In this document: positions 1-32,629 of the stretch, one piece after another | Layout of the letters: each line of letters opens with the position of its first letter | Position numbering within the stretch: the first letter of the stretch is position 1 | NCBI GenBank assembly: GCA_905250025.1 | Contig: CAJNOJ010000048.1 | Location: forward strand, 1 to 64,000 | DNA length: 64,000 nt | Reading direction: 5' to 3' | DNA from: Adineta ricciae | Lineage: Eukaryota > Rotifera > Eurotatoria > Adinetida > Adinetidae | Notes under the pieces: model-generated | Database searches by the model: none | Seen by the model: the letters and a program-made list of their open reading frames with translations, nothing else | What the model was told of the DNA's origin: nothing | Made by a program: the position numbers and the translations under genes

Positions 1-3000
1 TACCACGATCGCTTATATCTTTGATTATTTTGTCCATTGATCGAACATCAGGTAAACCATTTAAATACTTGTCCCAAGCACTACCTTTATTGTGACAAAA
101 GTTAGTATGTCCTGGACAATCACCAACCCAAACGATCATCTTTGCTGCACATGAAGGTTGATCGGGGTTTCGAACAGACGAACGAGTTTCCTAAAAAAAA
201 ATCAAATAGTTGTTTATTTCTGTAAACGTAACGAAATTTCTTTCAGCTCTTACTGGAATCGGCGTCCAGCTCAATCCTAAAGCTTTTTCCAAACCACCTT
301 GAACGTCTTCACATGCATCATCATTTGCAATTGGTTTTTGACTTGCTATTTTCACGCGCACTGCTTCGAAGTTTTTTGATTCTTGAAAATCAATCACATC
401 AAAACGTTGATCGTTGTTTGCAAAGTCACGGTATGCAACAAATGCCATTCGTAAAATCGAGCTTTTACCAAATTTATCTTTCGTCTCTTTTTGAATATTT
501 TCCGCAATGGATAATATATGAGTTTTACCTGCTTCAATCCAAGGCCCCATGGAACCAGTACAATCCATAACGAAGCAAATCTCTATAATCAGTGGATTAT
601 CAAATGCATTGTTGGAAAATGTCAATTCAATCGCATCATGAGCATTTTTTGTGATTAAATCAAAATATCTTTGCATTTTCACATCTTTCCAAATATCATC
701 CGTTGATGAATAATGTTCTTGATTTTCTCCAAGAATTGCTGACAAATTTTCTTCATGAAACAAGAGATCATTCGGTGTTTGTCCATCGGTTTGCTCATTT
801 GACCATTGAATCAATGCGTCCGAAAGTAAAGATGGATTTTGTGTAATAATCCAATCATTGAATGCTAAACTGACTCCATTTGATTCAAATCCGAGACCTA
901 AACCAAGAACCGTGATTAATTGTTGTTCAGCATAAGAAATCATTCGTTGAATAAACGCTCCACGTGTATCATAACCATCGGTGAAGACAAAGATCATCAT
1001 TGGACCATTGTTACTATTCGCAGCTGATTGTTGGCGAAGTAATTCTGATGCTGCAAATACGGCGTCACTTAACAATGTGCATTCACCATCAATTTTCAAT
1101 GCACTTAGAAAATGATGTAGAAACAATCGATCATAATTTTGCTTATAAGTTTTTATTAGTTCGACTTTCCGTCCAAATGCTAAGACATTGAAGTCTTCAA
1201 TACCGATGCGATTCAATGCTGCACAAAATGATAAGAAGATGTCAACAGCAGCAAAATAACTTGGTCCTGTCATTGAAACTGATTGATCCAGAATCAAAGC
1301 AATACGATATTCAGGTTTCGGTGCACCAATTTGATTTAAATAAATGCGATTGTATTGACCTTGTGTACAAATAAATCGAACAATGCCTGGAATATACAGT
1401 CGATTTCCTCTTGTATCAGGCAAAGATTGTGTTGGTTTATATGCTGGAAGAATATTATCTTCTAAAGCTCGAACTAAATCATTGATCGAAGATTCAGATT
1501 GTTGTTCAAGTTGTTGTAAAATCTTATCAGTATTCATAAGAATGGCTTCATGAGTTTCTAAATTTGAATAACTTTGTTCTAGCGCAGTCATTATTTTATC
1601 AAAATGTTCATGAAATTCTTTTGAAGCATGTGATAAATCGATGTCAAATTGTGATTGAGCTGTTTGTCGTTCAAGTTTTCGTCTTGAATCACTAATGTAT
1701 GATCGACCTGTATAATGAATTTCAGGATGTTTCCAACTTGTTACATCTTCAAAACGAGATAAAATAAATGGAATGATTCGGTTGATTTTAGTCAGATTCA
1801 TTGAAAGAGATGTTTTCATATTACTAATATTTGGTTTAAGATGAGTTAATATTGATTCTTCAATAAGATTAACCAAGTCGTTGACAACTGTTTTTGTTAA
1901 TATGTTTAATTGACCAATTTCGATCAATTGATTCCGTCCAGGTGCAACACTCGTAATAAATTCTTTTGTTTTCAGTTCATGTGCAAGACTTTGTTTTTCG
2001 TAGTCAGTCATCTGTTCGACATCTTTTCCTCTGGATGGTAACGGAGGTACAATACAAACGATATAGAGTTTCGCATCTGCTTGTTCTAATTCTGTATGAA
2101 ATAATTTTGGATCTGTTTGTGGTGATATTCCATCAGTGATCATGATAATAAAACGTTTCGCATTTGCCTTTTTCGGTTCACCAAACAGTTGATTATTCAC
2201 GGCGACTTGTCTTAAAGCTGTTGCTGGTAAAGTCTTTTCATCTGTAGTAAATGATTCGAGAATGAATTGTCCTTGTGCCAAATATTTCTGTTGAAGATTT
2301 GATGTTTGATCATCGGATGCGATTTCAACGGTTTCATGCATTGACATGTATGAAAGTGGCCTAAGAATCTTCTGTTCACCACCAAATCTTAACACAGCAA
2401 ATTTCCATTCGAGTCGATGAAATGTTTCCATGAGAATTACTAAGGTGTTGAGAGCTTCTTGAATCTTTTTTCCATTCATACTTCCACTATTGTCAACACA
2501 GAAGATAAACTCAAACTGAAGATCACTTTGTTGATGATTGTAGACACGTGCCAAAGCTGAACGTAAACGTGTTAATAACATTGTTTGAATATTTCGTGTT
2601 AGGCGAGCTAATAGAGCGTACCGTGGTTTGTTTAATTGAATATTAGGTAACTGTTCCGGGTCGCACGTTTCTGTGATTTGCCCAATGTCGTATTTGTTAA
2701 CAGATTTCAATAAATTGTTGAATGCGTTTTTTGCTTGTTCTTTTAAATCTTTTCTACGAACTGTCATTCGATACTTTTTCGCTTCTGAATTATTTGACGT
2801 TTCTTCAACTTCGTCAATAATTTTCACACGCATCTTTTTACTCAAAAGTTTTTGATGCGTTTCAGTGGATGAATGAGTACCACCTAGATTCGACTGAACA
2901 GAACCTCGATCATCAATTTCTAAAATAATGTCTCGATCTACGACGGAACTATCTTCTGTTTTCAGTGATGTTGCTCCAGTTAGATTGGACATATTTTTCA

Positions 3001-6000
3001 TTTCTCTGTCATCATCATCGTCGTTTGTATTGACATTTTTGTCATAGTTGGAAAGTAGATTTTCCAGTTGAACACCGAATCGACTGGATGCGGATTTTTC
3101 CGACAGTGTACCTTCGCTAAACTTCGAATCTTCAAAGGTTTGCATTAATTGTTGAATTTGATCGAGAACAATACGTTCTTGTGCTTGTTGACTTAGCTCA
3201 GAATGTTTTATCTCAGGTATGTCTCCATCTTCAGGTATATCATAGTCTTCCAAGAATTCGCTTTTCTTATTCGATTTCCACATTCGACGTAGTTCTTCCG
3301 ATTCGCAAAGTTTATCTAATACTTGAGTTAAATCAATTTGAATTGCATGGCATTTGTCTTTGATATGACCACTGATATCATATGTATATCGATCAATCCA
3401 TTCTAAGTGTTTATATAAGTGTAATGACACGGAAAACACTTGTGGAAGATCTGATGTAGCGAGCTTTTTTATTTCTTCACGCATTTTATTTGCTGCCATT
3501 TGTTGTACAGCGCTGATTGTTAATTGAATGGTTTTATTTATTTGACTCGCTTTTGACAAATATGTTATTGTTTGCGAAAGATCGAAATCATCATGTTGTA
3601 GTATACTGGTGATTTGTTCGTCAGATTCTTGATTTAAACGAACAATTTGTTGTGTTAATGTTCGAATTTCCTTTTCGGCGACGACTCGATTCTCCAGAGA
3701 AATATTACTTGGTGATGACGGTTCAGGAGTGATTGGATTCTCATCTAAAATTCCATGTGAAACGGAAACATCGTGTATGTCGGCAGTTCGATTCAATTCT
3801 ACTTGGGTGGAAACAGGACGTGCTAAGGTCATAGTATACGAAATCGATGGTTTAATTAGCTCTTCTTTTTTGTCAAGCATAGGACGAGTTACCGATTGTT
3901 TTGTTTCGATTCGAGTTACTATGTGTGTTGTATCATTGAAAAGGTTTTCCTGAGTTCCATTGATTGCTAGTCCAATAGCTTCTAAGACCAATGTGATTGT
4001 ATTATTTGCTTTAAGGAACATCGCGATGCCTGATATTGTGGAAAACGCTGCTCGAATTGCATCAGGATGATCTGGACGACTGCTGCTGATCAAATCGAAT
4101 GCTGTTTGGACGAGAAAAGAAAGCTGTTCCGCTTGTTTATTTCTCATTGTTGATGGTGGAAATGTTTGAATCATTCTTGTCAATCTCATAACAGCGTTCC
4201 TTATGTTTTTACCTGTTTCGAATAAATGGATCTGCGGCGTGTCAATGCCAAATAGAGACATGAGTTCAATAGAAATCGCCAGATATTCATCCTCTGAGAG
4301 CGTCTTCTCAGTGGGAAAATTGTTAATGATCCTACTCGTATTTTTGAAGATTTGTTTTTCTTCATTATTAAATAATGAATTGGCAATTGAAAGAATTGAC
4401 TCATCGGTGATTGATTGTCGATCGAGTTTCTTATGCAATAATTTAAATATTGATTCGAGATGATCATAATAACCTGGTGGAAGATAAGTTTTCAGAGTTA
4501 CTTGGAATTGATTCAATACTCGTTGAACATCATTTGATTCGATTGATGCAATTAAATCATAAATCGCTGCAAGTCTGTTTCTCAAAACTTCATTTGATAA
4601 ACACGATGAAACAATGTTTAAGGTAGTTTTTAGTAGATTAATCTTTGCTTTATTTGTACTCTTTTTCGTGCGCTCAAATTCTTTTGCGAGCTGATAAATC
4701 GAACGTAGATAAGTTGATAAATCTGTCTTTAATTCGTCTTTGACGTATAGTATTTTCAAAACTTCAAATTGATCGTTTGTTTGAGAGAAAACTTTTGATA
4801 AGTCGCTAACGAACGGTACAGCGTGCTCTGGTGAACGTTGAAGATATTCAGATGCAACTAAAACAATAGCTGCTTCTCGATCATAATTTTGAACATGTTG
4901 GATCAATTGTAAAATCAATGTCAACGATCGGGCAGTTTGCGTATCATTCAAAGAAATAATCAATTCAAAAGCATGTTCAAGAGAATCTTTCGTTATCGTT
5001 GACCGTGTCGATAAACTGTCTAAAATGTTGACAATTTGACAAATTTCTTCTTTCATCGAAGGAAAGAGCGTAGTAGCTTGCGAAATAGCTAGTGTTTTCT
5101 TATCATTTTGTAAATTCACATAGATTTTCGAAATAACTTGAAGCGTTGCAGATAGTTTCTCCGATGCCATGAGAGACGCTAAATCTAAGATGACTGGAAT
5201 AAGGCTTTTTCGTGTGACATCTTGTGAATAATCTAATCTTTCAACTGATTCGAATATCTGCCGATATCTTTGTTGATTTAATAATAGAGAAGAGAGTTTT
5301 CGCAATGCTTCGTATTTATTGGTTTGAAGTAGATTCAATACTTTCAATGATTTTGAAAATGCTCTACTAGTTTCGATGCCATAGTCGTCATATATCCTTC
5401 TCAAAAGCACATCCTCTTTCTGTTTTGTGTTTGCAGCCCATCGTTCGATTCTTTCATTAAAATCTATTCGGATATTGTCTGGGAGGAGCTGTGCAATATA
5501 TTTCAAAGCTGTAATGGGTTCATTGGCACCACGTTGCATAATTGCACCTAAAGTAATCTTATCATTGTTGACAAGTTCGGACTCGATAATTTGTTCACTC
5601 CATTCACAAATTTGTTGTCTTGAAAGGTCAGAAATGTTCGTTGGAAGAGTAAGAAATGTGCTACGAATGTTATCAGAAGCTTTCTCATCCGAAATTAGAG
5701 ATAAGACGTTGTCTATCATGAACACATCTTGATCGTTCATCATAGACGACGGTTGCATGGCTTTGACAATAGGTTGAAGAGATTCTTTCAATTGAAGATT
5801 AGGAATACATGAAATTGTTTCTAAAATGATGACATGCATATCTAAATCTGGACGTTTTTCATTGGAAACTGTTCGAAGATTTTCAATTGAATTGATGATA
5901 GAATCTGATCGATCTACAAATAGTATTTTGCTTTTGTCCAAGGGATGGAGCTCAAGATAAGAAGAATTTTTCATAGAACTCAAGAACTGATAACTCAATC

Positions 6001-9000
6001 GTAAAGCATCAAATGGTGTTAGTGTTTTCGAATCTGTTAATGAAAGGATTTCTAACAAATCGTTTGCATACTGTCTTCTATATGGATAAAGAACACCATA
6101 TAAGATTGACAGGTGAAGTGTCATTGCATACAGATTGTTCGCTGTAATTGCATCGAACAATTCTCGTAAAGTAATGGTTAATCGATCTCGATGTCGAATA
6201 TTGAACTTTGTAGCGATATGTTCTTCACATTCCGCAAGAATATCTGCAGTTGATACTGAACTTGAAGGTTGACGAGAACGCTCGACCAATTTGAGTACAT
6301 ATTCTAAACCTTCTGAAGCTAATCTCGGCATTTGATGATAGTAATAGGTGAGCTGAAATGCATATTCTACTAAATTTGCTTGTGATGATACGTCCGCTAG
6401 TTTTATAAATACTTTTGATAAACGTTGACAGTTATCAGAACCAAAAGATAACATTGATCCTAGTATGCTGAAATACATTTTTTTACCACAGACTGATGTT
6501 TGATCAGAGATGAGAATAACAGAAACAATGGTTTGTAAACCGTGAACCATTTTTATATCAAAATATGGTTTCAATGATGAACAGAGATCAATGACTATCT
6601 TCGGCCAATTTTGACTGATTTGATTTGAAGTTTGAAGTCGTTCGTTGATATTTGACAGTAGACAGTATAGAGAATGTAATGCGTCTCTCAGCTCCTTGTC
6701 AAATGTCGACGACAGAAATATGGTTGTGAAGGCAATGGAAACGAAATCGGTGATGCTCAAAGTAGTTCCATTGTTCATTAATTTTTCACTTAATTCAACA
6801 AATTCAATAATATTTTTGTATTCATTTCTTTGCTCGCGAATGTAATTCAAAATCGATCGGGTTGATAAAGAACCGTCAGTACTGAACGGTGGTCTTCGAA
6901 TCAAATCAATATCGGGTAAGTTAAAGTTGAATTCGTTAGCTTTCTGAACAATTTGGTTTTCAATGATTGGTTGCGAATTGAATGCAAATTGAAGTAAATA
7001 ATCAAGAAATTTCAAGGAATTTTGGGTCGATTCCGAGCTCATTTGAAGTAGGAGATGTTTTATCGGCTGATAAAGTGTTTTAGTTTGTTCGATTATTGTT
7101 ATTGTATCGAGAACTTTTTCAACAAAGTTTTTCAACTGTTGTCGTTGTTTTCCTGACAGTGATGTTCTATTAGGTTGAAAGCTGATCAAATTAATTGTAT
7201 AATCTAAAAGACGCCTCTTTGCCTTTTCTTCTCGTTGTAGATCGAGATGATTTTGTCGTTCGTATTCAATTAAACGTGCTAAGATCTGTTCGCCAGGCAC
7301 TTGAGCATATTCCTCGAAAAGAACAGCTAAACTTTCAGCATAGTAAACTGCGAACGCAAGACTTTCATTATTTGTTTCATTTTTTGCACCAGAAATTACA
7401 CGGGATAAAGAATCATTGAAGATTTTCTCTAATCTTTGTTTTAATTCAGTCCATTCATTACTTGCAATAGAACTTAATGCTTGAAGGAGATTTTGTCGAA
7501 TTGTTGCTACATAAGCTTGATGTTGAGTTGAGTGTGATTCGATTGCTGTTAGGATCGATTCACAAGCATCTAAATAAGCCTGATTTGGTTCACTTGAGTT
7601 CGAATAAGCCAAGGCGGTGAGAACAATGATAATTGGACTAATGGCAGTTGCTGCTCGTTGGGAATAAGGTTTTGTGCTGTCTTCGAGAAGAGCTTTCAAT
7701 CGTTGTTCAATGTTTGAATTCGTTAAATGTTTCCACGGTGTGGGAAGATCAACCAAATTAGTTCGCGTTGGTAAATTCTCAGCGGATTTAATGCGTCCTG
7801 CTATAATTAATTTATTACTCTGAATTGTGTAAGTCGAAAATCGAGTTAGAAATGGAATATCGATTCTGAAATTCCCATTGGTTGCACTTTCTTTGATTTC
7901 AATGAGGAATGCGATTTTTCGAGAGTTTCCTGGAGAAACAATGACGTTTCGATCGCAGTTTGATATATTCAAATCAAAAGTATTATTTTCTATTGGCTCT
8001 GGATTAACTTGGCCTGAAACGTGGCCAGTATTGTGAAGCACAATTGAAAACAGACCTAATTTTGAATTTGCTGCTGTTGTACCACAATGAATAAACGGTG
8101 GGTCAAGTGAAATTATTGGAACCATACGTTTACAATGAAAAGGTATACGAATAAGTGACTCTTCAAAATTTCCTTCGAGAATTAAGTTACAATCAAATGA
8201 TGCTAGTTTCTTTTGCACTTCATAGATATAAGGACAGCGAAATTCTTTAAATGCGGCAATTTTTAATGGGAAGCAAACTTCGTCGGGAATGGTTAGATAC
8301 GCTGATGTAGCATGAATATGATCGACAATCATTGGCACCGGACCTTTGTTAGAGATGATAATATTATCTTTAATCTGGTCTTGGCTTTCTTGTACTTTCA
8401 GGTTTGTTAGAGATTGAAGTAATGTAGAATCTAGTTTAGGCCAATCAGCTGTTGTGTTGAATTTCAATCTGAATCGAGGATTTTGTATTGCATGAATAAA
8501 ACAAAGTTCAACTGTACTAATCAATGACTGATGAACGGATTTGAGATCGAATTGAATTTGCAACGGCAATGACCGTCCGGGATCTAGGAGTGCTTCTGAA
8601 TGTGATAAATGTGTAGTGACAGTAGACGAATCAGAATTAGTCTGGGCTTTCAGCACCATTTGTATTTCACTTGTGTTTCGAATAAATAGTTCTTCTGAAA
8701 GAATTGTATTGGGAACACAAGGTTCTAATTCAACGGTGTGTTCCGTTCCAGTCAGCAGTTGAGATCGGTAAAGCAGTTCATAAGTAATACGACGAGTTTT
8801 GCCTACGCAGAGAATACGATATTTGAAATCTTTGCGGAAGTAGATTTCATAGGTACATGTAACATCCTGTACCAAGTCTTGGATGTTCCAACGTATGGAT
8901 AATGTCCGTGATTCGTGAGCCAATAGAAGCAAATTTGGATTTCGATTTTCGATTTCAAATCGACCTGTCGCACCGCCTTCTCGTCGAATTTTCACGCGAA

Positions 9001-12000
9001 GGTCGATTGATGTCGGATTTGTTAGTATAAACGATCGTGTGATATGGGATGCTGAACGTAATGCAACAACACCAAAATCCATAGAATATGTTGAAATTGC
9101 ATTCGTTGATGGAGATTCGTTTGTAGTTTGACACTGAGGTAAAGTAATATCAATAGCAAATTGTCGAACTTCACAACGAAGAAAAAGAGGAATCGTTAAT
9201 GGGTGATTAAGTAACTTCATTTGCCATTCTTGACCATGTTTACCTTCTTGAACTGACCTATCAAGTAGAACTTTAACTAAGCTAGTACTTTGTGGATTGA
9301 CAACAAGTATCAATGGTTGAATTGTAAATAAAGTGGACGAATTTGCTGAAGCAGTTGATGAAATGGTAAAATGAAGTTGATCATCACTGTCGTTAAAAAT
9401 TTCAATGGTTTTCGTTTTCATTTGTACGGGTGACCAATGCTGAATAACTTCTTTCATTTGAATAGTCAACGATGAACAAGAAGACGAATAAATTCCTTGC
9501 CGTTTTGTTACTGTTATTTTACTGATCTCTGGTGATCCAGTTGACGTAGTTAGTGTTTTGCCATTTATAGCACTTTGAATGGCACGGAATTCAACGTCAC
9601 AAACTGATTGACGAACTGAACGTACGTGCTTTCTACGTTCTTGAATCGAAGTAATAATTTCATCAAAAGTAGACGAATATGTCTCGACTTCTTCGGCAGT
9701 AAGAACTGATATCTGATCTTTTTTTAACCAAGATTCTTTTATTTCACTGACCAGATTTAAAGTTTTCTCACAATGATCTTTCGTTTCCAAAAAGTAACGA
9801 ATCAATTGCATAAATTGTATTTCAACATATCTTACGTCTTGTTTCATTCGTACAGCTAAACTTACATGATTCGTCATGATTTTTAAAGCATTTTTCATTA
9901 AACCCAACATTTCGGGCGTTTGCAGTTTGTAAATAGTTTCTGTCGATATGTAACCAAAACTATCGACTAACCGAACAGTACAAACTACTCTGTCGATGTT
10001 ATTTAATGAACCCAATAGTTGCGCTTTAAACTTGTCATATGATGAAATTGTTTGTTGTATGGAAATGAACGCTACTTGCAATTCGCATAGGCCTTGATAA
10101 AGTTTGTCGAAATGAAATTTTTCTTGAAAGAGTTTTAAGTCTTCTTTGAGAGATTCCGCTGAATTAAATTCCAAGATGTTATTATTAGCGAACAAGGAAA
10201 GTTCAGCATCGTTAATAATCGTATTCAATTTTTGTATTACTTCTGTGAGATTTTTCTTGAAATCTTCGTCTTGAGATAATGATTGTGTCATTAGATAGTG
10301 ATGGGTGGGCGGATCCGATTGATCCAAAGATTGAAGGTCCTTTTGTCGGCCAACAGCTGCCAGAGAACGAATATCCTCCTGTGCTGGCGGAGGAGGATAT
10401 TCCGGTGGAATAGGCATTTCATATACTGTTGACCGGATCTTTTGATTCGAATGACATTGTTTTTCAAGGCTTGAAATCCAGTTTTTAAGCTGTTTAGATC
10501 TCTGACATGGTTGTAAAGCTTTATATTTTGTATACATTTCACTATACCGATGGTCTATAGTATGAATTGCTGCTGTTGTCGATGTTTGGTGTCCGGTTAC
10601 GTTGATCGTTTCCATCAAATTAATGGATAGATTATGATGAATTTCTAAAATGATTGAACGTGCTTCACAGAGTCCAAAATCATAACGAATACTGGTATTA
10701 TTTTGTAGACACATTTGTGGATATTCAAGAGGTATACGAACTATTTCGGTCCAGTCGTTGGTATATTCGTAACGTACACGTAAAACTAACCACCAAACAT
10801 TTGATGATGGATTTATTGCGTGGTACCCAAGGTTTTCTACACAGTAAATCGATCCCGTTCTTACCAGTGGTTTCGATGGACAGTTAAATTCAGTACGATA
10901 ATCATCAGAAACGAATTGAACCATAGTACTCCACATATTTCGATTAGCTCTGCCTCCGGAATAGTCTACACAATAAACAACTCTTTTGACAACCACTTGA
11001 ATTGAATCAATCTTGACCATGTTCGCTAGTTCTCTACCTTCAAGATCTTCATTTAATTGACATTCAACTGGAACAACTTCGTTCAAGTTGACTAGTTGTT
11101 GTACAACGTTTACTACTTCATTGGTCAATCTGTTATGGTCATCAATGGCAAAATGATTTGATGGAATTTTTGCAGCCGATAATAGGCTACCGATAAATTT
11201 CAAATCACTGAATATTTGATTTATACTCGATTTCGTTTGTTGAATGTTTGACTGTATCTTTTTACATTGTTCCGAGTATTGATTGTATAAATTGCGATAT
11301 TTTTCTTTGGAATTTTGAATGCGTCGACCATAATCGGCTTCGATTTGTTCTGCAACTTTCTTATTAAGTTCTTCTCGCCGATCAACTAATTGATTTATCT
11401 GCTCTTTCCATTGTTGCACAATCGAAATCAGGTTTTCTCTAATGTTCTCAGACTTTTCAAAATAGTTTTTCTCAATCCCACTTTTCAAACATTGTAAATT
11501 ACTCATTGCAAGACGCAAGGATTCAAAACGAAATAGTTTTGTTAACCGAGTCAAGTACACAACAATTGGTTCATCATTAATCAGATCTTTCGCGGAATAT
11601 CTTCTGTTGAATTGTGCAATCGGTAGTTGAAGAAACTGACGAATATCGTCCGCCTCTCTACAGAATAAATTGACAACTACAGAATATTTTAATTGTTTGT
11701 CCTTTGATTTCTTAGACGACGTTATCGAACCAGCGAATGAACGAAGAATTTCTGCTGCTTGCGTCCAACCTTGCACGAGAAATTGTGCTAATTGTGTATA
11801 CCATTCGATACCTGCATCGAAATCACTTATCATTTGAGAATATCGAGCTAAGTTAGCGGGCATTAATGTTTCGATGAAAGTGACTTCGTCGATGGTTAAA
11901 CGTTGAAAGTTTTCGTTACGAAAAGGCGCTTGCAAAATTTCTATTTCATTTTGTTGATATTGTTGAAATGATTGAAGGAAAAAGAGAACAAATTCGTCAA

Positions 12001-15000: not shown

Positions 15001-18000
15001 AAGATGTACGTCCAACTCGACTTTTTAAAGTTCGTTCTTGAGAATTGATTAGAACAGGTAGGCTGATTTGAATCATATCTTTAATTTCAGCTGCAGTGAA
15101 AATTTCCAATTCTTTCGTCTCATCCCGAGTTAACTGATCAGCTGTTTTCAGCTGTATCATTGCTGCAGATTGCAATATTTGCTCGTGATATTCAGTCAGT
15201 TTTCTTTCGAATTCATCGACTGAAGTTTTGAAACTGTATGTATCAACCTGATCCATTATGAACTTCACGATTGCTATGAGTAAATCGGAAGTCTTATGAG
15301 CGGTTTTATAAAGATTAATATCGTTCATATTGCTTTGATTTCGTAGAAGCAGTTGCAAGAGTTTCCATTGAATTCGGTGTAACCGATTGATGAGAGTGGA
15401 AATAAACACGTGAAATTTCGTCTGATCGTCGGCTAAGTGTGCTTTTAATTGATTCAGAACAGGATATTGTACTTGTTTTTCGTAAACAAGCGACAAAAGT
15501 CGAGCTTTTGCATTGGATTCTTTCGGTATGCATAGTGCGAATGTGTTTTTCAGTTTTGTTTCTAATTTTTCAATTTTAGGTCTTTCGAGATCATTTCTCA
15601 GTTGATCAAGCGACTGAACTAAATCATCGAGCTGAAGGGTTTTTGCTGATGAAACTTTTTCAAGCATGGTTTTCGTTTGTTGGATGATTTTGAGAAAGAA
15701 TTCAATGTCTTTTTGTATTTCAATATCAATTGGATATTGACAGATTTGTTGATCGTTGCGAATGACTCCTGAACGTCGTTGATCGTGAATCCAATTGAGG
15801 ATATCTGAACGAATTTGTTCGAGATATTTTTGTTCGATCGGAAGCGGTTGATCTTTAATTAGTTGAGATTTGGAAAATAATTCTTTGATGGCAAATGGAA
15901 GAAGAAAATGAGCCAAATCTTTCTTAATGTTTGTCGAAACACGTCGTTGACTAACTTCGACTTGTGTTGTCACCGATCGTTGATGAATTTCAATTTCAAG
16001 ACGATCTAGAAATTGAACGAGAGTTTTTTCAACCACCACTTTTTCTGTTTCTTGTGCAAAAATGAAATGAATCACGGAGACTTTGTCATTGAGATGTGCC
16101 ACACCTTCGCCATTGATCAAGTACCGATTGAACGAACTTTTATCGATAATTAGAAAGTTTGTCAATTGAACGTTGATAACAATATCAAAATCATTATTCG
16201 ATTCCAGCGATTTCCGTATAATGGAATTCATATTGTCTTCTTGGCAAATAAAGAGAAGAATGTTTTGCTGGAATAGTTTGGGATAAACCAGTTGCATCAA
16301 AGCGAGAGCGGAACGTCCGTGTGGTGTATCAATATCACTAAAATTGATCTTTTGGAAGATCTCTCGTCGAAGAACTTCACCATTCAACTGATTTGTATCT
16401 TTATCAAGACATGTATATAACGAATAGATTTGATTGGAGCTGTATTCTTTCAGATAGATACCGGAGATAGTTTCGATCAGTTGGTAAACGTGATTTTCTT
16501 GCCGTTGTTGAGCGTATTTGCTGATGTTGTCAAACCAGCCTTTCTCTTCGTATTGCTTTAAGCATGTTTTAAGTGGAACAAATTGATCAAAGATCCTTTC
16601 TTGTAACTGTTCGAATGCTTCGAGAGCAGCTAGATGACGATATTTTTCGTCCGTTAATTCCTTTTCTTTTTTCCCTGCAACAAGTATTTTGTGTTCAATT
16701 TCACTATCTTGTGACTGCCCGGATTGAAGATGTTGGTCAACTGTTCGATGAATAGCACGAATTTTCTCATCGATCTCGGATGGATTTGGAAGCAAAGCAC
16801 TTTGATATTCATTGTACTTCTCTTTAACTCGGTCGAGCTCAGTTTTGCGTGATTCAACTTCTTCGAAAATCTTTTCAAGAATCGTTTGAATGCAAAAAAT
16901 TAGATTCAAAGACGTCAACAAATTCGAAAAATTCAGCAGAGGTTGTTGTTCGCCGAGTGTATCAACAAACTCTGGTTTTATTTGGAAATTCATGGTTAAT
17001 TTACAGGCGACATTTAACTCCAATTTTGATGCAGCGATCAGGATAAGTTTCTTTTCATTCATTTTCGATAGATATTGATATAATCTCAAGATAATATCCG
17101 AACGTTGATCAGCTGAATATATGATCGGAAGCGATTGAACCTTTTGTAGATGAACATTGATTAAATTTAATGATGATGCTGATTCATTCGATTCATTGCC
17201 ATTAGCAGTAAAATTCTGCTGTCGTAATGACTCTTGAGTTTGAGAAAGGATGTATAAATCAGCTTTAGCTGTTGGTTGACAAGGAAATGAAATCCATTTG
17301 GTATAGGTTTGTAGAATTAATAAACGATTTAAATCTTCTTCGATCATGTAATTATAATGTTCGACGAGAGAAGATCGAGACGAACTGGAAACCGATTGAA
17401 ATTTTTTCGCTAATTCGATTAAACTATGTACCGTCGACGTTAGTCGCTGTAGTTCGTTGAGTCGGTGTTGCGCGTCGAGAAAGGAAGTTTGTCGAATAAA
17501 GTCAAAACTTAGTTTCAAACATTCGGTTATTGTATTATCCAATCGAATTAATGTATCTTCTATCTGTTCGAATGGATTGAGAAGTTTAATTGCTTTAAAA
17601 TATCTATAAACTTTAATGAGGTATTCTTTAAGATCAGATGCGAATGATGTTGGCTTCTGATTGGAAGTAAGAAGTTGTGTTCGAATACGAGATATATCGA
17701 GTTCATCGGAAGTTTCATGCTTGATCTTTAATAAAGGTTGAATGAAATCGAATAATGCGAGAACATAATCATGAAAATTTTCTCGATCGAATAAATCATT
17801 CGGAAAACTTGTTTCGATCATGCGTAAATGAAGTTCTAATATCGATTCTTCAATGATTGCAGCCAAATTATGGATGTATCTCGATGGTCCATACCATTCC
17901 ATTTGTTCTTCGAGATTTTCGGCTGCTGACATGGATGTTAACATTGGTAATGTTAAGTAGCTTGTTTTATTATGAATGTCGCGATGTTTCAAATGTTTAA

Positions 18001-21000
18001 TGAATGATGTGATTACAGCCAGTTTTCCCGGTTTGTCTAGAATTGGATCGATATAGCTTCGAAAGATTGAAATTTGTAACGCTTGAACTGGATTATCTCC
18101 TTTCATCGCATAAGTTTGTACAATTCGTGTTGCACGTTTTAAATTCTGATACGAATATTTATACGATGGAATCAGTTGAAGTTCTTTTTCGTTCGATAGT
18201 TTCTGTGATGATGCATGAACTCTGAGAAGAGTCGAAGTTAATTCTTGTCCGGCATTGATACCTTGAAGCTCACCTTTGATCAATTCAAACAAATCATGTT
18301 CATCAACATTATCAACTGTTAATTCTTTATCTAATTTTTGCATACGAATGATCAAACAACGATTTCTCCATGCACTTGATAACTTATTGGCCATTTTTCG
18401 ATTAGTATTTGCGATAACAAACAAACGAAAATCCTTATGAATTCCATGGCCACGACGATATTGATACGCATCAGCTGATTCATACAAGGTTAATGTTGGT
18501 TCAGTTTCAGCTAAGGAATTCAAACGTTCAACAACGTCACCACGTGCACAGTTGATATTATCTAATAAAATCCAATCGCCTCGTTCCATCGCTTGGACCA
18601 AAGGTCCTTTATTGAATGTAAATGTCAGACCTTCACTTAATCGTTGTGCTAATTTGCAATCATCTTCTGTTTGTTCTAGTGCGTCGAGGTATTTCTCAAT
18701 TTCATCTAAAATGGACTTTTCTTGAGTTTGTCTGGAATGTTTCAAACCAGTTTCTAAGATCAATTGACATTGCTTGTAAGCCTTTTGTCTTTCTTCAATG
18801 TCATCTAAGAAATTCAAAATTTAAATAAATACATTACTCGAACAATGACTTACCACTTTCCCAGTGATAAAGAATTGATCTCATGTTGAGTATCAAAGTT
18901 TCTGCATCTTGAGATTTCTGCGCCAGTGGTATTAAAGTTGTTAATGTAAATCGAACAACATCATTCAGAAATGCGTGACTGTTTTGCTTTCGGCGTTGTT
19001 CGTACGATTGTTTATTAATAATAGTCCATGAGCCGAGTAAATCAGATGTGGTGGTTTCATGAGTCAAATTCAAAACTAGCAGACGCCGTCCACAAAGTCG
19101 AGCCAGTTCACAAACAATGGCTGTTTTTCCAGCACAATCATCGCCTTCAATTAGAACGGTTGCTTTGCTGACTGTTGCAGCAGCGAGTAATTGTAATTTT
19201 TCTAATGTTCGTTGACTATGAACACAAGCTCGATAATGCGATGGATATTCTTTCTTTTCAATATAAACAAAACCTAAGCGAACGTAACCTTGAAGATTTA
19301 AATCAGTATCAATCATTGTTGGTCGATTTTGGCGTTGATGAGTTGTATTCTTCAAAGGAAAATGTTGACGAATTACATCTCGAACAAGTTCTTGATCATG
19401 ACTATTTTCAAAACGAGATGCATAGACAATGTCCAGATATACATGAAGACTTCGAACAAGATTTTGATCTTCTATTTTGTTGAAACTATCGTCGTCATCA
19501 TCGTCGTCATCAGCAATCATAGACGTTGTCATTGAAGAAGAACTCGTCTGTTCAGCAAGATTCATATGAGCTCGATGTGTTACTGAAAGAGCGTCGATGA
19601 GATTTGATAGCTTTTCAATATCTCTTAAATTGAAGTCATACGGTCCACCGATGCGACCAATTTGTCTTAATCGAGCTTTTTCATTGATTTCAAAATGAAA
19701 TGCATTGATCTTTCTAATTAATCTACTTGTTAGATAACCCGCAACTAGATGAGGATACAAAATCGTTTTAGTAATTTGTTCGAACTCTTGAAATTCGAAT
19801 GGAGCCAAATGAACTTGAAGAAAATGTGTTTGAGTTGATCGAGGTAGTTTTTCTCTTCCGCCACCGATCGATGATGGATTCATTGCAGCGATCACAATTG
19901 AACCTTTAATTCGAATTGGTTTTGCTAATGCTGGAATAAATAATTCGTCTTCGTTTGCAAATAATGGCGTCAGTTGGTTTAAAAGTTCTTTTCTAGCTAG
20001 ATTCAATTCATCAAATAGGAGAATAGAATTTTCAAGATTCTTTGTCAATGCTCGGTAAAGAGGACCTTCTTGAAATTCAAATGAGCGTTGTCCATGAATA
20101 ACACGTGGAACGAATGAACCGATCAAATCTTCGAATGTTGTGTTACTACTAAAATTGATTCGAACAACATCGTAACCTAACATTTCGCCTAAAACTTCGA
20201 CAATTCTTGTTTTACCCACACCAGGTGGACCAACAAGAAGTTGTCTTTTAGAAGAATGCAAAGAAAATACAATTCTTGATAAGTTATTCAGAACAGATTT
20301 TGTGACTGCTAATGGAAATCGGTAATCTTTTGACAAAGGTTTTGCTTGAGGAGCAAACGGAGCGATCAATTTATTAGATTTTAATATCAAAGCCCAATGC
20401 TTTCGTTCACTTGGTGTATTAGGCTGCAAAGTTACCTCTTCTACTTTACACCATTGATCAAGTTCAGTGTAAACACCTAATTCATCGAATTGCTCATCCA
20501 ACTTCATGCAATCATATGAGCATTTGAATGCTGCTAGCACTTTCCCCCAAGCAACATTTGCTGATTGAAATTTTGATATAATCGATTTTTGTGTTTGAGC
20601 AATATTGTCAAGAAAGAGAAATCTCACACACAGTGCAGCTGCTATCTCTGTCGGCATTGATTGTTGATTTAAATGTAAACATTCAGCGAACTGAATGAAA
20701 TGTCGAGAATTTATTTCATCGATTAGCATCGCCTGTGAAATGATCGGTGAAAGCTCTCGAGCAAATGTTTCAATTTTTTCATCAAATTCCGCTTTTCTTT
20801 CGACGTTTGTTTCAATCTTTTTTGCTAATTCTTTCATTTCAATATTATCATATGGTTGGACACGAATTTCCGTCATTCGTGAACGAGTAGCTGCACTTAT
20901 CTGCAAACGGTGTTCGTTTCGTTCATCAATATGCACAGTTGCAAATACTTGAAAACTTGGGAGAATTGGAATTTTTGATCGATGTGCTTGGTTGTCATTC

Positions 21001-24000
21001 GTTGAATCACCACTGACAAAGTCTTCGTAGAGAGTAAATGATGGTTCGGTTTCGAACAAGCTATTTAAACGTTCGATGACTGCTTGTGATGGCTCATTAA
21101 TATCTTCTAAAAGTAAAATTTGTCCTTCTTTCACGGCACTTGTTACAGGTCCGTCTTGGAAAAGGAAAATATTCGTCTTTCCGTCTTGAACTGCTTTTTG
21201 AATTTCTTTTATTATTTTTTCACAACGAATTTTGATCAGATTCACACCATTTTCATGTTGAACAAGACTGCATACGGAATTCAACTGTTTAATCGTTCGT
21301 TGTAATGTCTCATCGATTACTTTAAAAGCTTCAGATATTGGATTGACATCAGTCAGAGTGTTGAATGAAGATACCGAAGTTGATCTCGAGAGATCCGAAA
21401 GTGCTTGTGTATCATGAACAAATGCTAAAAGTTTATCTTCTTTTGACATCGGTATTTGGCTTCGTGACGATTCCTGATCATTATCATCGTCGTCAGTCGC
21501 AGCAAATGGGTCTTTTATTTTCTTTTGAATTACCGAAACTATGCTAGTAGGTGCACCAATCGAAGCATTTGCTTGAACGATTTCATCATCATCATCGTCA
21601 TCACTATCAGCTGCAAAAGGATCGCGAATTTTTTTTCGTTGTACTATTCTTGTTATTGTGAATTGCGGAGTCGGCGCATCATTCGCACTTTCGTCTTCTT
21701 CTTCTTCGTCATTATCAGCTGCGAAAGGATCGCGTATCTTATTCGCTTGTGCTGTGGTAGTTGCTAATTGAGATATTGGTGCTCTTTGTGTATTTTCATT
21801 GTTAACATCATTATCGGGAGCTGCAAACGGATCGAAAGATTGTTTTTCTTTTTGTTGACTTCGAACAATATCATTAATTTGCTCCACACTTTCAATCCGA
21901 TCAACATCGTCATCATCATGTTTCACAGACTTGTAAAACGATCGACTCGGTGGTGTTAGTGAATGAGGACTTTCCGCATGTACTAGATCAGGTAGAAGTT
22001 CATCGTCAATGGAATCGAGTGAGAGATCTGAAGAAATGGTTTCGGAAATTGGCCCTTGTAATGTTGCTCGTTTTGATCTTGTTTCATGTGCTTGCTTTTT
22101 CAATGCTTGAATAAATTTGTCTGTACCTCGTTCGAGAGGTTCAATATATAATTCATAAAAACGATCTAAATCTTTAGAATTTGGTTGTGAAATCAAATGA
22201 CCACAACTATTGACACGATTGTGAAATTGTCTTAAGGAGCTAACTAATAGGTTCAACGCGTCTGCAAGTGTATAAGGTCTATGGGAGAAGAAAAATTAGA
22301 AGTGAATGGATTTAATTTTTAGAAAACAATTTTACCTGATTGAACCAATTAGATCATTAGTTTCTGTTGCTGTTGAACATGTGATTGTACAGAGATTTGA
22401 CAGTTTATTCGTTAATTGCGCCCAAACTTTAATCAAATGAGATTTATAACAAGTTGGACCTAATAGAAGAACAGGTTCATGTTGTTCAGCAGCGGCGAAG
22501 ACTCTCCAAAGGGCAAGAAGAAAACTTCTAGGTGCATTGGATAGCTGCAGTTGATTGACAGCTTCACGATTAGAAAAATCATATGAAATAGTCAAGTCAG
22601 GTGGACGAGTTAGAGAAATTTGCTGTTCATCGATTCTTATTTGAATTGATGCATCAATTAAATCTGGTAAAGCTTGTCGATCTTTTAGACAAACAAGCAA
22701 ATCGCTATGATACTGCTTTGGTACTCTCGATTCCAATAGTCTTAGTGCGTGTTCTTCCCATGAAACATCTGGCTTTTGCTGTTTTCGACCAATCCATTTG
22801 ATGACTTCACGCATTGTTAACTTTAATTTGGGTGCACCTAATAAACCAGAACATTTATTTTCGATAAATTGATTGACAATTGTGATTGTTGAGGCGATAC
22901 GTGGAGCGAATTCGGCCAAACGTATATTTGATCCTTGAAAGCCAGGTAGTTTTCTTTGCATTATAATAAAAGTTAATTCATCTCGAGAGAAGTTCTCAAA
23001 AAAGATTTCGAGAAATCGCGAACGTAGAGTTTTTGGAAGTTGTTTACGTCCAGCATAGGTTGTACCATTTTGAGTGGCGAAAAATCGAAAACCATCTTGA
23101 GCGAAAAGAACGCGTCCTGTATTTGGCACAGTCAAATGTTTTTGACCTTCGAGGATTGGGTAAAGCACATTCATGACAGCTGGTTCAGCTAAGTCAAACT
23201 CATCAGCAACGAACCAGTGACCTTCAGACATAGCACAAGATAATGCACCTGGCAGAAATTCACCATTTGGCATATAAGAGCCAAAGTAATCTTGAACAGT
23301 TGTTCCTTTTGTATTGTTAACACGATAGAGACGCTTGTTTTGACAGTGTGCTAAATATTCAATCAAACTTGTTTTGCCTGTAGCAGCTGGACCTTCGAGT
23401 AGAACTGGTCGAGAACAGATAATTGATGCACAGAGCCGTTTTGCTGCTTCGTAGCGTGCGGGTGTTTGAGTACCGTCAATGATATGTTCTCTATGTCGTT
23501 TACGCTGTTCTGCTGAAACACATACATCGAAAAAATTTATTGTTGTAGGCCGAGCTTTTTCTCTCAGATAAGTTTTAATATTCGTAGAAATTGGAGTATC
23601 TTTTGAAATGACTAATTCTAAACCAGCGAGTAATATCGAATAGATATTTGATCGAAGATCTTTCGTGAATATTGAATGTTTCAATTGAAAAGCACAATCG
23701 AACCATTGTACAAGTTGCCCTATTGTTAGTGGTTCAGATTTCAATTGATCATAAAGATAGTTAATCAGTGGTTCGTTGTCGTCAATAGGAAAATACGATC
23801 GAAAGAGATTTTGATACGTTTCAAGTGATGTCAGATTCAAACCTTGATAATAAAGTATGAGGAAACGATTGTATAAAGCAGGTGTTAATTCATGATTTGT
23901 TTCAATTGACGCATTTTGTAAACGTTCAGTTGGTGGTGACATTGTGGCAATGATACGAAAACGAGGTGAAATTTTGACTGGTATTGTTTCATTATTTTCA

Positions 24001-27000
24001 ACCTTAATCCATTGTGCTGGCTGTTCGAGAACAGAGTTGAGTCGTTCAAGAACGGCTGATGATGCTTCAGAAAAGTTTTCAAGAATTAGCCAATGACCCT
24101 TTTCAGCTGCTTCACTCACCGCTCCATCTTGCCATTCAGGAGACTGCGGATGTGGGACAATGGAACCAACTAGAGCTGATGGTTCTGTTTGTGGTGTTAT
24201 ATACAGGTGTTGACAGCGTACTTGTGCAGTTGTAGCAATCGATCGTACAAGGTGGCTTTTTCCTGATCCTTCGGGGCCGACAATCAAAATTGGCTGAGTT
24301 GGAGTTGAAGACAAAATATAATGAACAATTCGACTTGCTTCACTATCAAGATAAAATGCTGGGCGGGCTGCTGAAAGTGGCGGAATTGATTTTTTAATAT
24401 CAATATTAGATCTGGAATATTCTCGAACAATATAATCAATAATTTTGTTTCGTTGTGTGAGAGTGCGACATAAATTGCTGTAAGTTTCCATGAGTAATCT
24501 TGATAAAACCGCTGTGTCTTCTCCATAGTGTTTCTCTAGGACTGACCATAATAGTTCGTAGGAACAGTCATAAATCTGCTGAAATTTGTCTCCTTCATGA
24601 AGTGTTCGAAAAGCGAAATTATGTATTTGAACAATTCTTTCTAATTCTTCGGGGCGATGTGGTTCACGTAACTGGCATGGCCATTCATCTTGAATACGTT
24701 TGACTGAGACCGTCAAAATTTGTAGTAATAAACGTTGATTTAATCGGTATCCAATTCTATCGCGCATCTGAAAATCGATTGTCAATGTTCGATTAAACAA
24801 TGGATCTGTATGGAAAACTTTTTCGATTTCTTTTGCAACTTTTTGTTGACTAATCTGTTGACGAAAGCGTGCTCCATAGATAATGAAAGCCTGTTCAGTA
24901 GCAATGTTATCAAATTCTTTTGCTGGAAGTTTTTCCACTGATTGTGAAGTGTTAGCAAACACTTTTCCATAGTTACACAAACTTTGACACCAACGAAAAA
25001 GTTCTCGAATTGTAATTTCACCATAATTTCGATTATTTTCAGGGAAGTTCGTATTCTGTACCAAATCCATCAAATTCTCATGTAGTTTTATCATAAAACT
25101 CGTTAGATCAACAAATAGGACTTTTTCAAGAGTTAAACGACTTTGAATAATCTCAGTTAATTCGTCAGTTTCAGGAGCATCGACAATAAAAATGCTAAAA
25201 CGATTGAGTAAAGCCGTCGATTGTTCATCTCGTGCACCTTTATATCGACCAATCGAAGGATTCTGCGTAGCAAAAAGACGAAAATCCGGATGCATTTTAT
25301 ATGTTCGATAGTTGACATCACTTTGAGTTTCATCTTCATTCTCAACATTAGGTAAAATCAAAACACCTGATTCGATTGCTTGTTCTATTGCTTGAAGTAC
25401 ATTTGATGATGCCAAGTTCAATTCATCCAATAGAAGCCAAAGGCCGTGACTGTATGCATATGTAAATGGACCTTCTTCAAACTTTAATTCAATGGAATTA
25501 TTATGTTGAAATTGAATTGAACCAAATAGAGCAGCGACATCAGTTTTTGATGATAAGTTAAAACGAATTAAAGGTCGTTTGAGATCAGCGGCAACATCAA
25601 GGATTAGACTTGTTTTTCCAACACCTGTTGCACCTTGTAACAATAAGTGAATTGGTGTTCGAATACATTCGAGAATACGTTTGCGATTGAGAAGCATTGT
25701 TTTCGTTCGGACTAATTGTGCAAGCGCATCACGTTTAGGAATGAGGCATTCCATATCTGGTGGACATGGACTGACAGATTGTTTAATTGGATTTAAAGAA
25801 GAATCGTCCTGTTTCGATGAATCTTCGTCAACAAGCGATTTTTCTAAATCTTTGATTAAATTCTGAAAATCGGCTCGATTGACCATACAAAAAGTGAGTT
25901 TCGAATTGGAACGAAAGTTTTCGCGTTCTACAAGATATGTTGAATAAGAAGTTTCATCCTGAACTGGTTGAAAATCTGTTGTAATAGGACGGTTGACATA
26001 ATTTTTATCTTTGATCGTTGTTAAAAACTTCGTTAAATCATTTGGTTGAATACTTAATGAAATACTTAGCAATCGGGCAATAGCCAGTCGAATTGTTGAT
26101 TCTTGATGTAGAAGTGAAGAGAAGAACATCGAAATCGACTGTTGAACGAACAGTGAGAGAAACTGGAAGCTTGGCAGTGGAAGAAAATGAACTGTTTGCT
26201 GAAGTTTTTCTTCTAAAAATTTGATTAATTCGTGTTTATAAATGCCAAAATAACTCTCGGCAATCGTCGGTTGAAGATAATAGGAAAATGATGAGTTACT
26301 GTTGTTCTGCGAAGCTTCATTATTGCTGTCCTGAACGTTATCGTTGGTTATCAGTGACAAAAACAGTAATTGTTCTAGCCAATATTTTACAAGATCGTGT
26401 TGTTTTGTTTTTGCAAGAAAAGCACAGAATTTGAACATTTCCTTAGATTCAACTGAAAAAAATAACGTGGATTGAACGATGATTTTCATCTCATCAGAGG
26501 AGAACGTCAATGATTTCAGTAGGTTTCGATTGATAAATTGAAGAAGGAGCAATGCGCTTGTTGATAATAAGCGTCGACGAAATGCAAAATCATCTAGAAA
26601 TGTATTTTCCTTGTCATTGCTCAAAATTCGCCGGAGAATTTCGATTAGCGATTGACAAAGCTTGTTCAAATCTAAAGTTGCCGAATGAAGTTTTGAGATT
26701 GATTGAGTTTCAAAGATTTTTTGTAGTAGTTGCAACAATTCATTCAATAGACGGTAATTTTGTCGATAAATTCCAATTAAGTCGAAAAAAACCGGTAAAC
26801 TCGTCAAAATTTTCCATCGATGAAAGTTATGGAGTCGACAAACTTCAAGTAAGCGAATGCTCGACATTTGAATCTGTTGATTGTTTGGATCTTTGTATAA
26901 AACCTCGAGCATCATTGCAGTTGAATCATCTTCGTAAAATTGAGTGAGAAACTCCAGTGATGTTTGTGAATGATTCAAATTCGAATACAACAAATAAAGA

Positions 27001-28598
27001 AACAGAGACCGATGAATGTTGTGACAAAATTCTTCAAAGTCATTTGTCGTTTTCGTCATGGGTAATAACAAACGATCAACATTCCGGTGTATCAAATCGA
27101 CAAAGAACTGATAATATTGTTGATAATACGGAGGAATTTCGTGACTTTTTCCCGGAATTTTGCTCAATCTTGCAGCCAGCATTGACAATAAATGACATAC
27201 TTCCTCAATCTGCCAGTCTTGTGAAACTTTCAGGCAGACGTTTAATAAAACTGGATCGATTTCAAACGTTTGTTTGATAATCCGTGTTTCTATGAGTGAC
27301 GTTATAATTTTCGGTGTAACTACAGGTGTCAATAGAACCTCGTCGGATAATTCGAGGTCGCTGATCAAAGAACAGATTAAATTTGTACTCATCCATCGAA
27401 TCGCCGTGTCATTGTGATTGAACATAAACAGAAAAAATTCTTTCACGTCATCTTCAGCAAATCTTGATGAAGACCGAAGATAATCCAATGCAATCTGTTG
27501 AATCTTTTCCAAAAGGAAATTCCATTGTGACCTTTCCTCGGAGTTCTCAGAGTGTTGTAAAGCATAGAATAAAAGCATTGCCAATGGTGCCAAGAATGTC
27601 GGGCGGGCATGAATGTTATTGTTACGATAGAAAAATTCACATTCGTCTGTCCATTTGACTTTACAGTCCACGGAAATCAATTGATTTGTGTGATGATTGT
27701 TGCCCATCCGACTTGGCTTGTACTCAAGTTGTTCGATGAACTGCTTTTCCATAGATTTTAACAAACCTTCGTCTTGAGTTTTATCTTTATCAATAACTTC
27801 GATCTTAACTATTCGATGGCGTTGCAAAGCAAATGAAACTATCAATGATAAACAATGGTTATCATTTATCAAAGCATCTTTGATAAAATCTGTACGACAT
27901 AAGTGAAGTAAAATCTCTTCTAGATTGATGAGTTCATCGTCGGTTTTCCGCGATATTTTACCTCGAGCGTTTTCAAGAAAAACAGCGTATTGTTCAGCTA
28001 TATCAATTGGATATGTGACCGGATTTGAAATGGCTTCATAAGTTGTTGAGTCTTTAGAAAATGGAAATGCTCTTTTAGATTGGTATTTTTCTTTCATTGT
28101 CGACGGATTCACGCCGCGTGATTCTCCTAACCATTTCTCTTTTGACCACGCTTGAACTGTGATTACTGGTGTCGGAGCATAAAGTTTCGAGCGAGAAACA
28201 ATAGAAATTATTGAGAAATAATAATGCTCATCTTCTAGCACTGAACTGTGAGCAATTAATCGGTTGAATATTTGGAAAAAATCGGATGAAAATGTTTCAT
28301 GTGTGGAATAAAATCTATAACACGGTAAAATTAATGCACTAATTAAGATTGAAACTATTAGTATATCATCATCAGTTTGGTTCACATATTCTAGTTCTTC
28401 TTTCAACGTTTTAAATGCATCTTCTATTGATTTTAATTCCGCTTTTTGTGCTTTTATTACATTCGATTGCGAAAATTTGCGTAGCTCCTCAAGTGATTTC
28501 GACAGTAATGTTGGATTACGACTGAAGAATAGGTTTTTAAACTTCAATGAAATTTCCCGAGTGGGAAAATTTTGTGTAGCTGTAGATTGTCCTGCCAT
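1..28598 (-). CDS. Giant six-AAA (midasin/dynein-type) protein with ASH-like and triple VWA domains, 3' partial
   Basis: One gene in four exons: 28598-22336, 22278-18854, 18804-254 and 190 to beyond position 1, with introns of 57, 49 and 63 bp. All joins keep frame (about 9,476 residues seen). Start is the first ATG, 28598. Residues 1-940 are helical. P-loops lie near residues 989 (GATGVGKTS), 1443 (GPEGSGKS), 1738 (GPAATGKTS), 2048 (GPTCYKSH, degenerate), 2772 (GPPGVGKT) and 3136 (GDDCAGKT); Walker B is intact (DELN, DEFD, DELN) in modules 1, 3 and 5. A long helical linker follows, with a beta-rich patch near 5900, an ASH/MSP-like block at about 6330-6890 and helical repeats. VWA domains begin near 8664 (DNSGSM), 9067 (DQSVSM) and 9311 (DCTGSM). 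Ring, linker and C-terminal MIDAS recall midasin, but the length, ASH block and VWA number do not fit MDN1. Probably a mechanochemical remodeller; substrate unknown. Confidence 0.88.
19488..19520 (-). repeat. Aspartate-codon microsatellite in the giant gene
   Basis: A (GAC/GAT)n run encodes an eight-residue Asp stretch after AAA module 5 of the giant protein. It is a small in-frame low-complexity tract and a likely site of length variation. Confidence 0.75.
21500..21840 (-). repeat. Four DPFAA-acidic repeats inside the giant protein
   Basis: Within exon 2 of the giant gene, the motif DPFAA followed by an Asp/Glu/Asn run occurs four times at about 36-residue spacing (roughly residues 2237-2350). 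The flanks are KIRDPFAADNDEEEE, KIRDPFAADSDDDD, KIKDPFAATDDDD and a more diverged SFDPFAAPDND. They lie in the insertion between Walker A and Walker B of AAA module 4. DPF is a known binding motif for the AP-2 alpha appendage in endocytic proteins; whether it acts that way here is not shown by the sequence. Confidence 0.8.
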
Positions 28599-32400: not shown

Positions 32401-32498
32401 GTTACAAACGAGAAAACAAGAATACTACATCTGACAAGAATATTAAAAAAGAAGTAAAAAAATCACGTACAAACGCGAATCGTCAACAGAAAACATAG
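29468..32498 (+). CDS. Long coiled-coil protein (island coiled-coil gene 1)
   Basis: Two exons, 29468-30468 and 30527-32498, joined across a 58-bp intron (GTAGAC donor, TTTAG acceptor, phase 2, splitting a Lys codon AA|A), give 990 residues. Start is the first in-frame ATG, in the good context ACCATGTCC. The N-terminus is acidic and serine-rich (SDSSSSEDDSDED). The rest is nearly continuous heptad coiled coil rich in Glu, Gln, Lys and Arg, ending in a basic tail. There is no membrane segment or enzymatic motif. The neighbouring gene at 36611-39629 is a paralog: same two-exon layout, intron at the aligned position and phase, matching blocks near the C-terminus (SIIELKSEVQQQ here, SIVELKADIQEQ there). 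Similarity to myosin tails or SMC proteins is compositional only. Probably a structural or scaffold protein; function unknown. Confidence 0.85.
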
Positions 32499-32629
32499 CA
32501 TTAAAGTAGGCTACTCAGACAATTTCATTCGATACCTATTTGTATTCGTTTACTCTCGAATAAAAGTCATTTTGCTTCTTTATGTGCAGCATTTCCTACT
32601 TTGATTTAAGTTCAGTTTTAGATAAACGC
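32499..32629 (+). promoter_or_regulatory. Short spacer with poly(A) signal and trans-splice-like acceptors
   Basis: The spacer between the two same-strand genes holds AATAAA (32559-32564), followed 24 nt later by a pyrimidine-rich acceptor ending GTGCAG (AG at 32588-32589), then TTCAG. This order is what an operon-type junction resolved by spliced-leader trans-splicing would look like. SL trans-splicing is known in bdelloid rotifers; its use here is inferred. Confidence 0.4.

Follow-up and report, generated by a model that had tools for sequence, protein, structure and literature searches.

The window analyzed here, the first 64,000 nucleotides of contig CAJNOJ010000048.1 (C48) of the bdelloid rotifer Adineta ricciae, carries on its minus strand a giant gene whose protein combines six AAA modules with three VWA domains. 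Three stop-to-stop frames of this strand (28613-22332, 22295-18834, and 18820-191) are open, and splicing at 22336/22278, 18854/18804, and 254/190 joins them into a stop-free frame of 9,476 residues running from position 28598 to position 1. The introns, of 57, 49, and 63 bp, each begin with GT and end with AG, and leaving the third one unspliced stops the frame after residue 9,433. An earlier note on this DNA had joined the frames in the same way, over introns of 49-63 bp, into one giant protein running past the window edge; the exact splice sites and the lack of any stop bear out the junctions, and a complete homolog on contig C75 (C75B), with the first intron in common and under purifying selection, bears out the single protein. 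As for the edge, because position 1 of the window is also base 1 of contig C48 (the assembly has 130.46 Mb in 1,033 contigs), the open 3' end of the gene is an assembly edge; the relatives on contigs C75 and C141 stop ~60 residues beyond the point where contig C48 ends, from which the full C48 protein should be about 9,540 residues long. Chance frames and a pseudogene are ruled out by homology, the shared intron, and selection. The GC content of the window is 0.357, and A. ricciae is described as having 35.6% GC and a median intron of 55 bp (PMC5916493; this and the other papers given by PMC number are cited from excerpts).

By homology, the C48 giant is a midasin-class protein and not an unrelated design. 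Indeed, solved midasins are the top structure matches of exon 1 (E-value 1e-106), of exon 2 (3.5e-70), and of segment 3231-7163 in exon 3 (1.6e-33), far exceeding NorQ, CobS, or dynein, and the Midasin AAA lid domain of Pfam (AAA_lid_7) reaches 43.2 bits in exon 1 and 29.8 bits in exon 2 for a cut-off of 22.7. The C-terminal segment of 2,250 residues matched no PDB entry at E ≤ 0.01, and a VWA profile matched a single PDB entry, named NDE1 (0.0058). The genome's own MDN1 is a separate, intron-rich gene on contig C135, the only place matched by the other midasin lid model, AAA_lid_5 (one match, three candidates scored). Its C-terminus (C135:233139-233747) matches the element around the second VWA of the giant (VWA2) with a genome-wide E-value of 6.4e-9, and aligns to window residues ~8965-9143 with 24% identity over 181 columns (9e-11 against 2 kb). 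Because this alignment takes in VWA2 together with the ~100 residues preceding it, VWA2 is, by homology, the MIDAS of midasin, to which VWA1 and VWA3 have been added. Six tandem midasin-type AAA modules and a C-terminal MIDAS with its preceding stretch thus place the protein in a broadly defined midasin class; it is not an MDN1 ortholog in the strict sense, being a different gene with degenerate AAA2 and AAA4 motifs and no large AAA2 insert. The midasin-like plan proposed in the earlier note therefore stands as regards the six AAA modules, the linker, and the MIDAS, with a kinship closer than it implied (1e-106, the lids, and the MIDAS unit), and its view that this is no ordinary MDN1 is upheld by the separate MDN1 on C135.

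Cytoplasmic dynein and RNF213 are other giant AAA ring chains, and VWA8 unites AAA modules and a VWA in one chain. Dynein was rejected on a Dynein_heavy match below cut-off and structure matches of 4e-8 at best, to one module, in exon 2; the shared P-loop models AAA_6 and AAA_7 are above cut-off in exon 1 (among the best 25 of 45 families), as is AAA_7 in exon 2. RNF213 was rejected in turn, being absent from the 11 and 24 structure matches found at E ≤ 0.001 with exons 1 and 2. A gene at 851-855 kb of contig C10 (C10:845000-854999), which by its sequence we take to be VWA8, has AAA modules that match those of the window weakly, with 43.5 bits at best against 119 for the host MDN1, and VWA8 was likewise set aside.

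The giant is not alone in its genome, which holds at least six giant midasin-like genes in two subfamilies, namely those on C48 and C141 and C75B on the one hand, and C75A (a second gene on C75) and those on C12 and C112 on the other; such counts are lower bounds, since the own-genome searches score best candidates only. The main frames of the second subfamily span 7,493 (C75A), 7,717 (C12), and 7,430 residues (C112). Within the first, C75B is complete with 9,281 residues, has intron 1 and lacks introns 2 and 3, and is 40.6% identical to the C48 protein over 8,957 aligned positions. Per 200 residues, this identity amounts to 0.59 in AAA1 (1001-1200), to 0.44-0.71 across residues 1401-3600 with 0.32 in the AAA4 insert, and to 0.43-0.69 from residue 8601 on, all other blocks lying at 0.18-0.44; the ring and the VWAs are hence the best-conserved parts, and the linker diverges quickly between copies. 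The ratio of nonsynonymous to synonymous divergence (dN/dS) was 0.04-0.26 in 7/7 comparisons, four of them between two C141 copies and three against the window, the latter being rough owing to their high dS. On these sequence data, the giant genes look functional. The synonymous divergence itself is 0.08-0.22 between the two C141 copies and 1.2-2.3 between the window and C141 or C75B, and A. ricciae is described as having a mean KS of 0.135 between homologs and of 1.267 between ohnologs (PMC5916493). Separately, C141:53001-117000 appeared as an N-jointed mosaic of two copies of the first subfamily, likely homologous copies that were mis-scaffolded.

With regard to the modules (table 1), Pfam AAA_5 stretches number three in exon 1, three in exon 2, and one in exon 3, and all six AAA modules were recovered in order in four relatives. 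Walker A and Walker B are 66 residues apart in AAA2, and in AAA4 the two motifs are separated by an insert of ~350 residues that includes Asp-rich runs. Among the best 25 of the 45 families matched in exon 1, none has its best stretch within residues 1-961. The VWA, VWA_2, and VWA_4 models are matched by all four sequences of the first subfamily (up to E 0.1); in the window, the third stays below cut-off (VWA_4, E 0.0013, 18.7 bits for a cut-off of 27) and it reaches 1.2e-8 in the best relative. In the second subfamily, four VWA places are found in C75A (the first below cut-off), four in C12, and three by Pfam in C112. The beta-sandwich block between the linker and the VWAs is matched in the window by HYDIN_VesB_CFA65-like_Ig above cut-off (1.2e-6) and by ASH (1.9e-5) and Cep192_D6 (4.9e-5) below it, and ASH and HYDIN-type models match 4/4 sequences of the first subfamily (up to E 1). 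The second subfamily matches as well, by Cep192_D3 (6.6e-10) and HYDIN-type Ig (1e-8) in C75A, by Cep192_D4 (1.1e-8) and HYDIN-type Ig (1.3e-6) in C12, and by HYDIN-type Ig just below cut-off (4e-5) in C112. Used as a genome query, the block returned four matches, all at places of the first subfamily, and its profile had no match among solved structures; it belongs with ASH/HYDIN-type Ig domains and accounts for little of the protein's length. The earlier note had announced this domain content, that is, six AAA modules, three VWA domains, an ASH-like block, and extra N-terminal residues, and each of these was recovered, the last as ~950 residues ahead of AAA1. Pattern scans of viral and prokaryote contigs, limited to two peptides each, returned no relatives of the triple-VWA region. 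As an observation apart, short frames of 258-621 residues on contigs C145, C185, C252, C11, and C111 match VWA3 alone, with 33-38% identity, and are perhaps a separate VWA family.

Table 1. Features of the window, with residue numbers (res) referring to the C48 giant protein.
Feature	Coordinates	Strand	Remarks
N-terminal extension, res 1-960	25719..28598	-	No known domain (Pfam); 34% identity to C141 homolog
AAA1, res ~960-1200	24999..25721	-	Pfam AAA_3/AAA_5; Walker A GATGVGKT and Walker B LLDE intact
AAA2, res ~1412-1640	23679..24365	-	Walker A intact, Walker B degenerate (LENF)
AAA3, res ~1707-1925	22824..23480	-	Walker A/B intact; best match of midasin AAA3
AAA4, res ~2018-2590	20772..22547	-	Across intron 1; P-loop shortened (GPTCYKSH)
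Intron 1, 57 bp	22279..22335	-	Position and phase identical in C75 homolog
AAA5, res ~2742-2960	19662..20318	-	Walker A/B intact; best match of midasin AAA5
AAA6, res ~3104-3410	18263..19232	-	Across intron 2; Walker B LLDN
Intron 2, 49 bp	18805..18853	-	Absent from C75 homolog
Long linker, res 3461-6290	9623..18112	-	No Pfam match up to E 0.1
HYDIN/Cep192/ASH-type Ig block, res ~6357-6653	8534..9424	-	Three matched stretches (Pfam)
Res 6961-8599	2698..7612	-	No known domain; single sub-cut-off Pfam match, Mad3_BUB1, 0.064
VWA1, res ~8663-8821	2030..2506	-	DNSGS; Pfam VWA
Midasin MIDAS element (~100 residues and VWA2), res ~8965-9173	974..1600	-	DQSVS; host MDN1 alignment; Pfam VWA_2
VWA3, res ~9305 onward	1..580	-	DCTGS; Pfam VWA_4; intron 3 inside, cut by contig end
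Intron 3, 63 bp	191..253	-	Absent from C75 and C141 homologs
Coiled-coil-like long frames, pair	29279-32498	+	Similar make-up to the other pair, opposite orientation; the two pairs flank the AAA gene
AAA protein over several frames	32564-36419	+	Pfam AAA 6e-16
Coiled-coil-like long frames, pair	36611-39641	-	See the other pair
VLIG/URGCP-type GTPase frame, then VWA frame	40485-46807	+	Pfam URGCP_GTPase 3.3e-27; VWA_2 1.3e-8

The nucleotide-binding sites of the ring follow a pattern of their own. Across five paralogs (C48, C75B, C75A, C12, and C112, with C141 left out), AAA1, AAA3, and AAA5 retain Walker A and a DE Walker B in 5/5, and just as constantly AAA2 shows EN or DN, AAA4 a shortened P-loop with ED, and AAA6 DN. 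The sites that keep their motifs in the giants thus differ from those of midasin, which requires AAA2-5 to bind or hydrolyze ATP (PMC6920918). When profiles of these five paralogs were set against fragments of the host MDN1, of which AAA1 and AAA2 are too short to be placed, host AAA3 scored highest in slot 3 (158 bits, against 129 for the runner-up) and host AAA5 in slot 5 (89 bits against 75). In a tree of 34 rows, where host AAA4 is a long branch, host AAA6 is unusual in residue composition, and host AAA5 fills 43% of the columns, every slot formed a single clade spanning both subfamilies (98-100/95-100), host AAA3 grouped with slot 3 (81/90), and the odd slots with host AAA3 and AAA5 were split from the even slots with host AAA4 and AAA6 (92/97). 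Altogether, the giant gene is a real, selected, multi-gene variant of the midasin class with an unusual active-site pattern.

Architecture, homology, motif pattern, and selection are what the sequences show; we lean, with rather better than even confidence, toward the reading that the gene encodes a neofunctionalized remodeling motor of the midasin class, belonging to a family with six or more members, for which we infer a ring, pulling through the MIDAS, and a non-ribosomal cargo. In such a motor, the six AAA modules would fold into one ring, with ATP presumably hydrolyzed at AAA1, AAA3, and AAA5, and AAA2, AAA4, and AAA6 in structural or nucleotide-sensing roles. The long linker would lead to a grip at the C-terminus, in which further VWA domains flank the MIDAS domain of midasin, and the MIDAS would hold the cargo through a metal-coordinating ligand. 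This grip would then dock on the ring, and ATP-driven movement would draw the cargo out of a large assembly, as may be supposed by analogy with midasin, whose own flexible tail carries a MIDAS that engages Rsa4 or Ytm1 and docks onto the ring (PMC6920918). The N-terminus and the Ig block could act as targeting or docking modules, and the cargo would be non-ribosomal; as far as the sequences tell, the giants probably do another job than the ribosome assembly of MDN1.

Several observations weigh against this motor reading and the ring register on which it leans. Host AAA4 matches slot 2 best (81 bits) and slot 4 with only 36 bits, host AAA6 is tied between slot 6 (67) and slot 2 (66), and in the tree host AAA5 is basal to the odd slots instead of grouping with slot 5, the 92/97 support of the odd/even split being below the star threshold. 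The large AAA2 insert, which in midasin occupies the pore (PMC6920918), is absent as well. Finally, the genome yielded just two NLE-type UBL matches, hence no expansion of the known midasin ligands, which makes an expanded Rsa4/Ytm1 family an improbable ligand, although exon-split copies could escape the scan.

Other roles can be envisioned for such a protein. The surroundings of the gene hint at innate immunity or genetic conflict, where a ring ATPase with VWA sensors would act against invaders in a manner akin to RNF213, VLIG GTPases, or bacterial MoxR-vWA, and which would be compatible with a midasin-type mechanism. Indeed, the C48 giant adjoins a VLIG/URGCP-type GTPase frame and a VWA frame, possibly one gene, together with one gene from an AAA family of many copies (33 genome matches, 48 candidates scored). 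Each of the C48, C75A, and C12 giants has a copy of this family at a distance of some 10 kb or less; the fast divergence of the linker among copies points the same way, and bacterial MoxR-vWA pairs, in which an AAA ring is likewise coupled to a VWA, albeit as a pair of proteins and not in one chain, are predicted conflict systems (PMC7159879). However, this linkage, although suggestive, may be inherited through genome duplication, 0/33 matches of the AAA family fall on C141 or C112, no effector domain emerged from the Pfam scans, and selection is purifying, so that we regard this role as rather unlikely. A ciliary or centrosomal remodeler, whose HYDIN/Cep192-type Ig domains would bring a midasin ring to complexes of the axoneme or centrosome, would account for the HYDIN/CFAP65/Cep192-type matches of 4/4 first-subfamily sequences and of all three second-subfamily genes. 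Nevertheless, the HYDIN-type model also matches 4/14 prokaryote control genomes (three above cut-off), and a genome-wide scan with it (14 matches, 30 candidates scored) returned none of the giant genes, which leaves this alternative with a slightly smaller chance still.

Given that its ring and MIDAS are homologous to those of midasin (MDN1/Rea1), with the same chain of six AAA modules, of which AAA3 and AAA5 correspond best, a long linker, and the same C-terminal MIDAS after a stretch of ~100 residues, the gene might also be a diverged MDN1 copy that still serves ribosome assembly. This is improbable in view of the separate MDN1 and of the differing active-site set, N-terminus (~950 residues ahead of AAA1), Ig block, and extra VWAs. 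The giants further differ from midasin in size (9,281 residues for C75B and about 9,540 for C48, against 4,717-4,910 for PDB midasin chains) and in the missing large AAA2 insert. A planarian Burro-like element has a retrotransposon open reading frame with midasin homology (PMC6431247), which raises the idea of a mobile-element gene that captured a piece of midasin; the intron in common, the end-to-end homology, and the purifying selection make it very improbable here, and no gag, reverse transcriptase, or integrase was found by Pfam in the four segments scanned (for exon 1, among the best 25 of 45 families), terminal repeats not having been searched for.

As regards prior literature, a Rotaria magnacalcarata gene of 7,479 residues, of unknown function and weakly similar to midasin over ~1,000 residues, is mentioned in passing, two individuals carrying a retrotransposon insertion in it (Nowell et al. 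2021, PMC7943196). This gene also belongs to a bdelloid and comes near the second subfamily in size, and although it is likened to the giants by description and not by sequence, the family has, on this excerpt, been glimpsed before in print. In the excerpts of open-access literature covered, no description of the giant family was found beyond that mention, and a "Midasin" single-nucleotide polymorphism is listed for another rotifer (PMC6927961). The opinion of the earlier note that no named protein has this order of domains has accordingly to be tempered by the bdelloid gene with partial midasin similarity.

On a bolder and more tentative view, which we consider possible and would not yet bet on, bdelloids run a second midasin system, in which giant rings firing at AAA1, AAA3, and AAA5 and equipped with a grip of three to four VWAs would work on a non-ribosomal assembly, such as one of cilia or one directed against invaders. 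To our knowledge, midasin is regarded as a single essential motor of ribosome assembly. If the second system were real, the ring-plus-MIDAS core would be reusable for other cargo through altered ATPase sites and added targeting and gripping modules, and the family would offer a natural experiment on which of its six sites a midasin ring needs.

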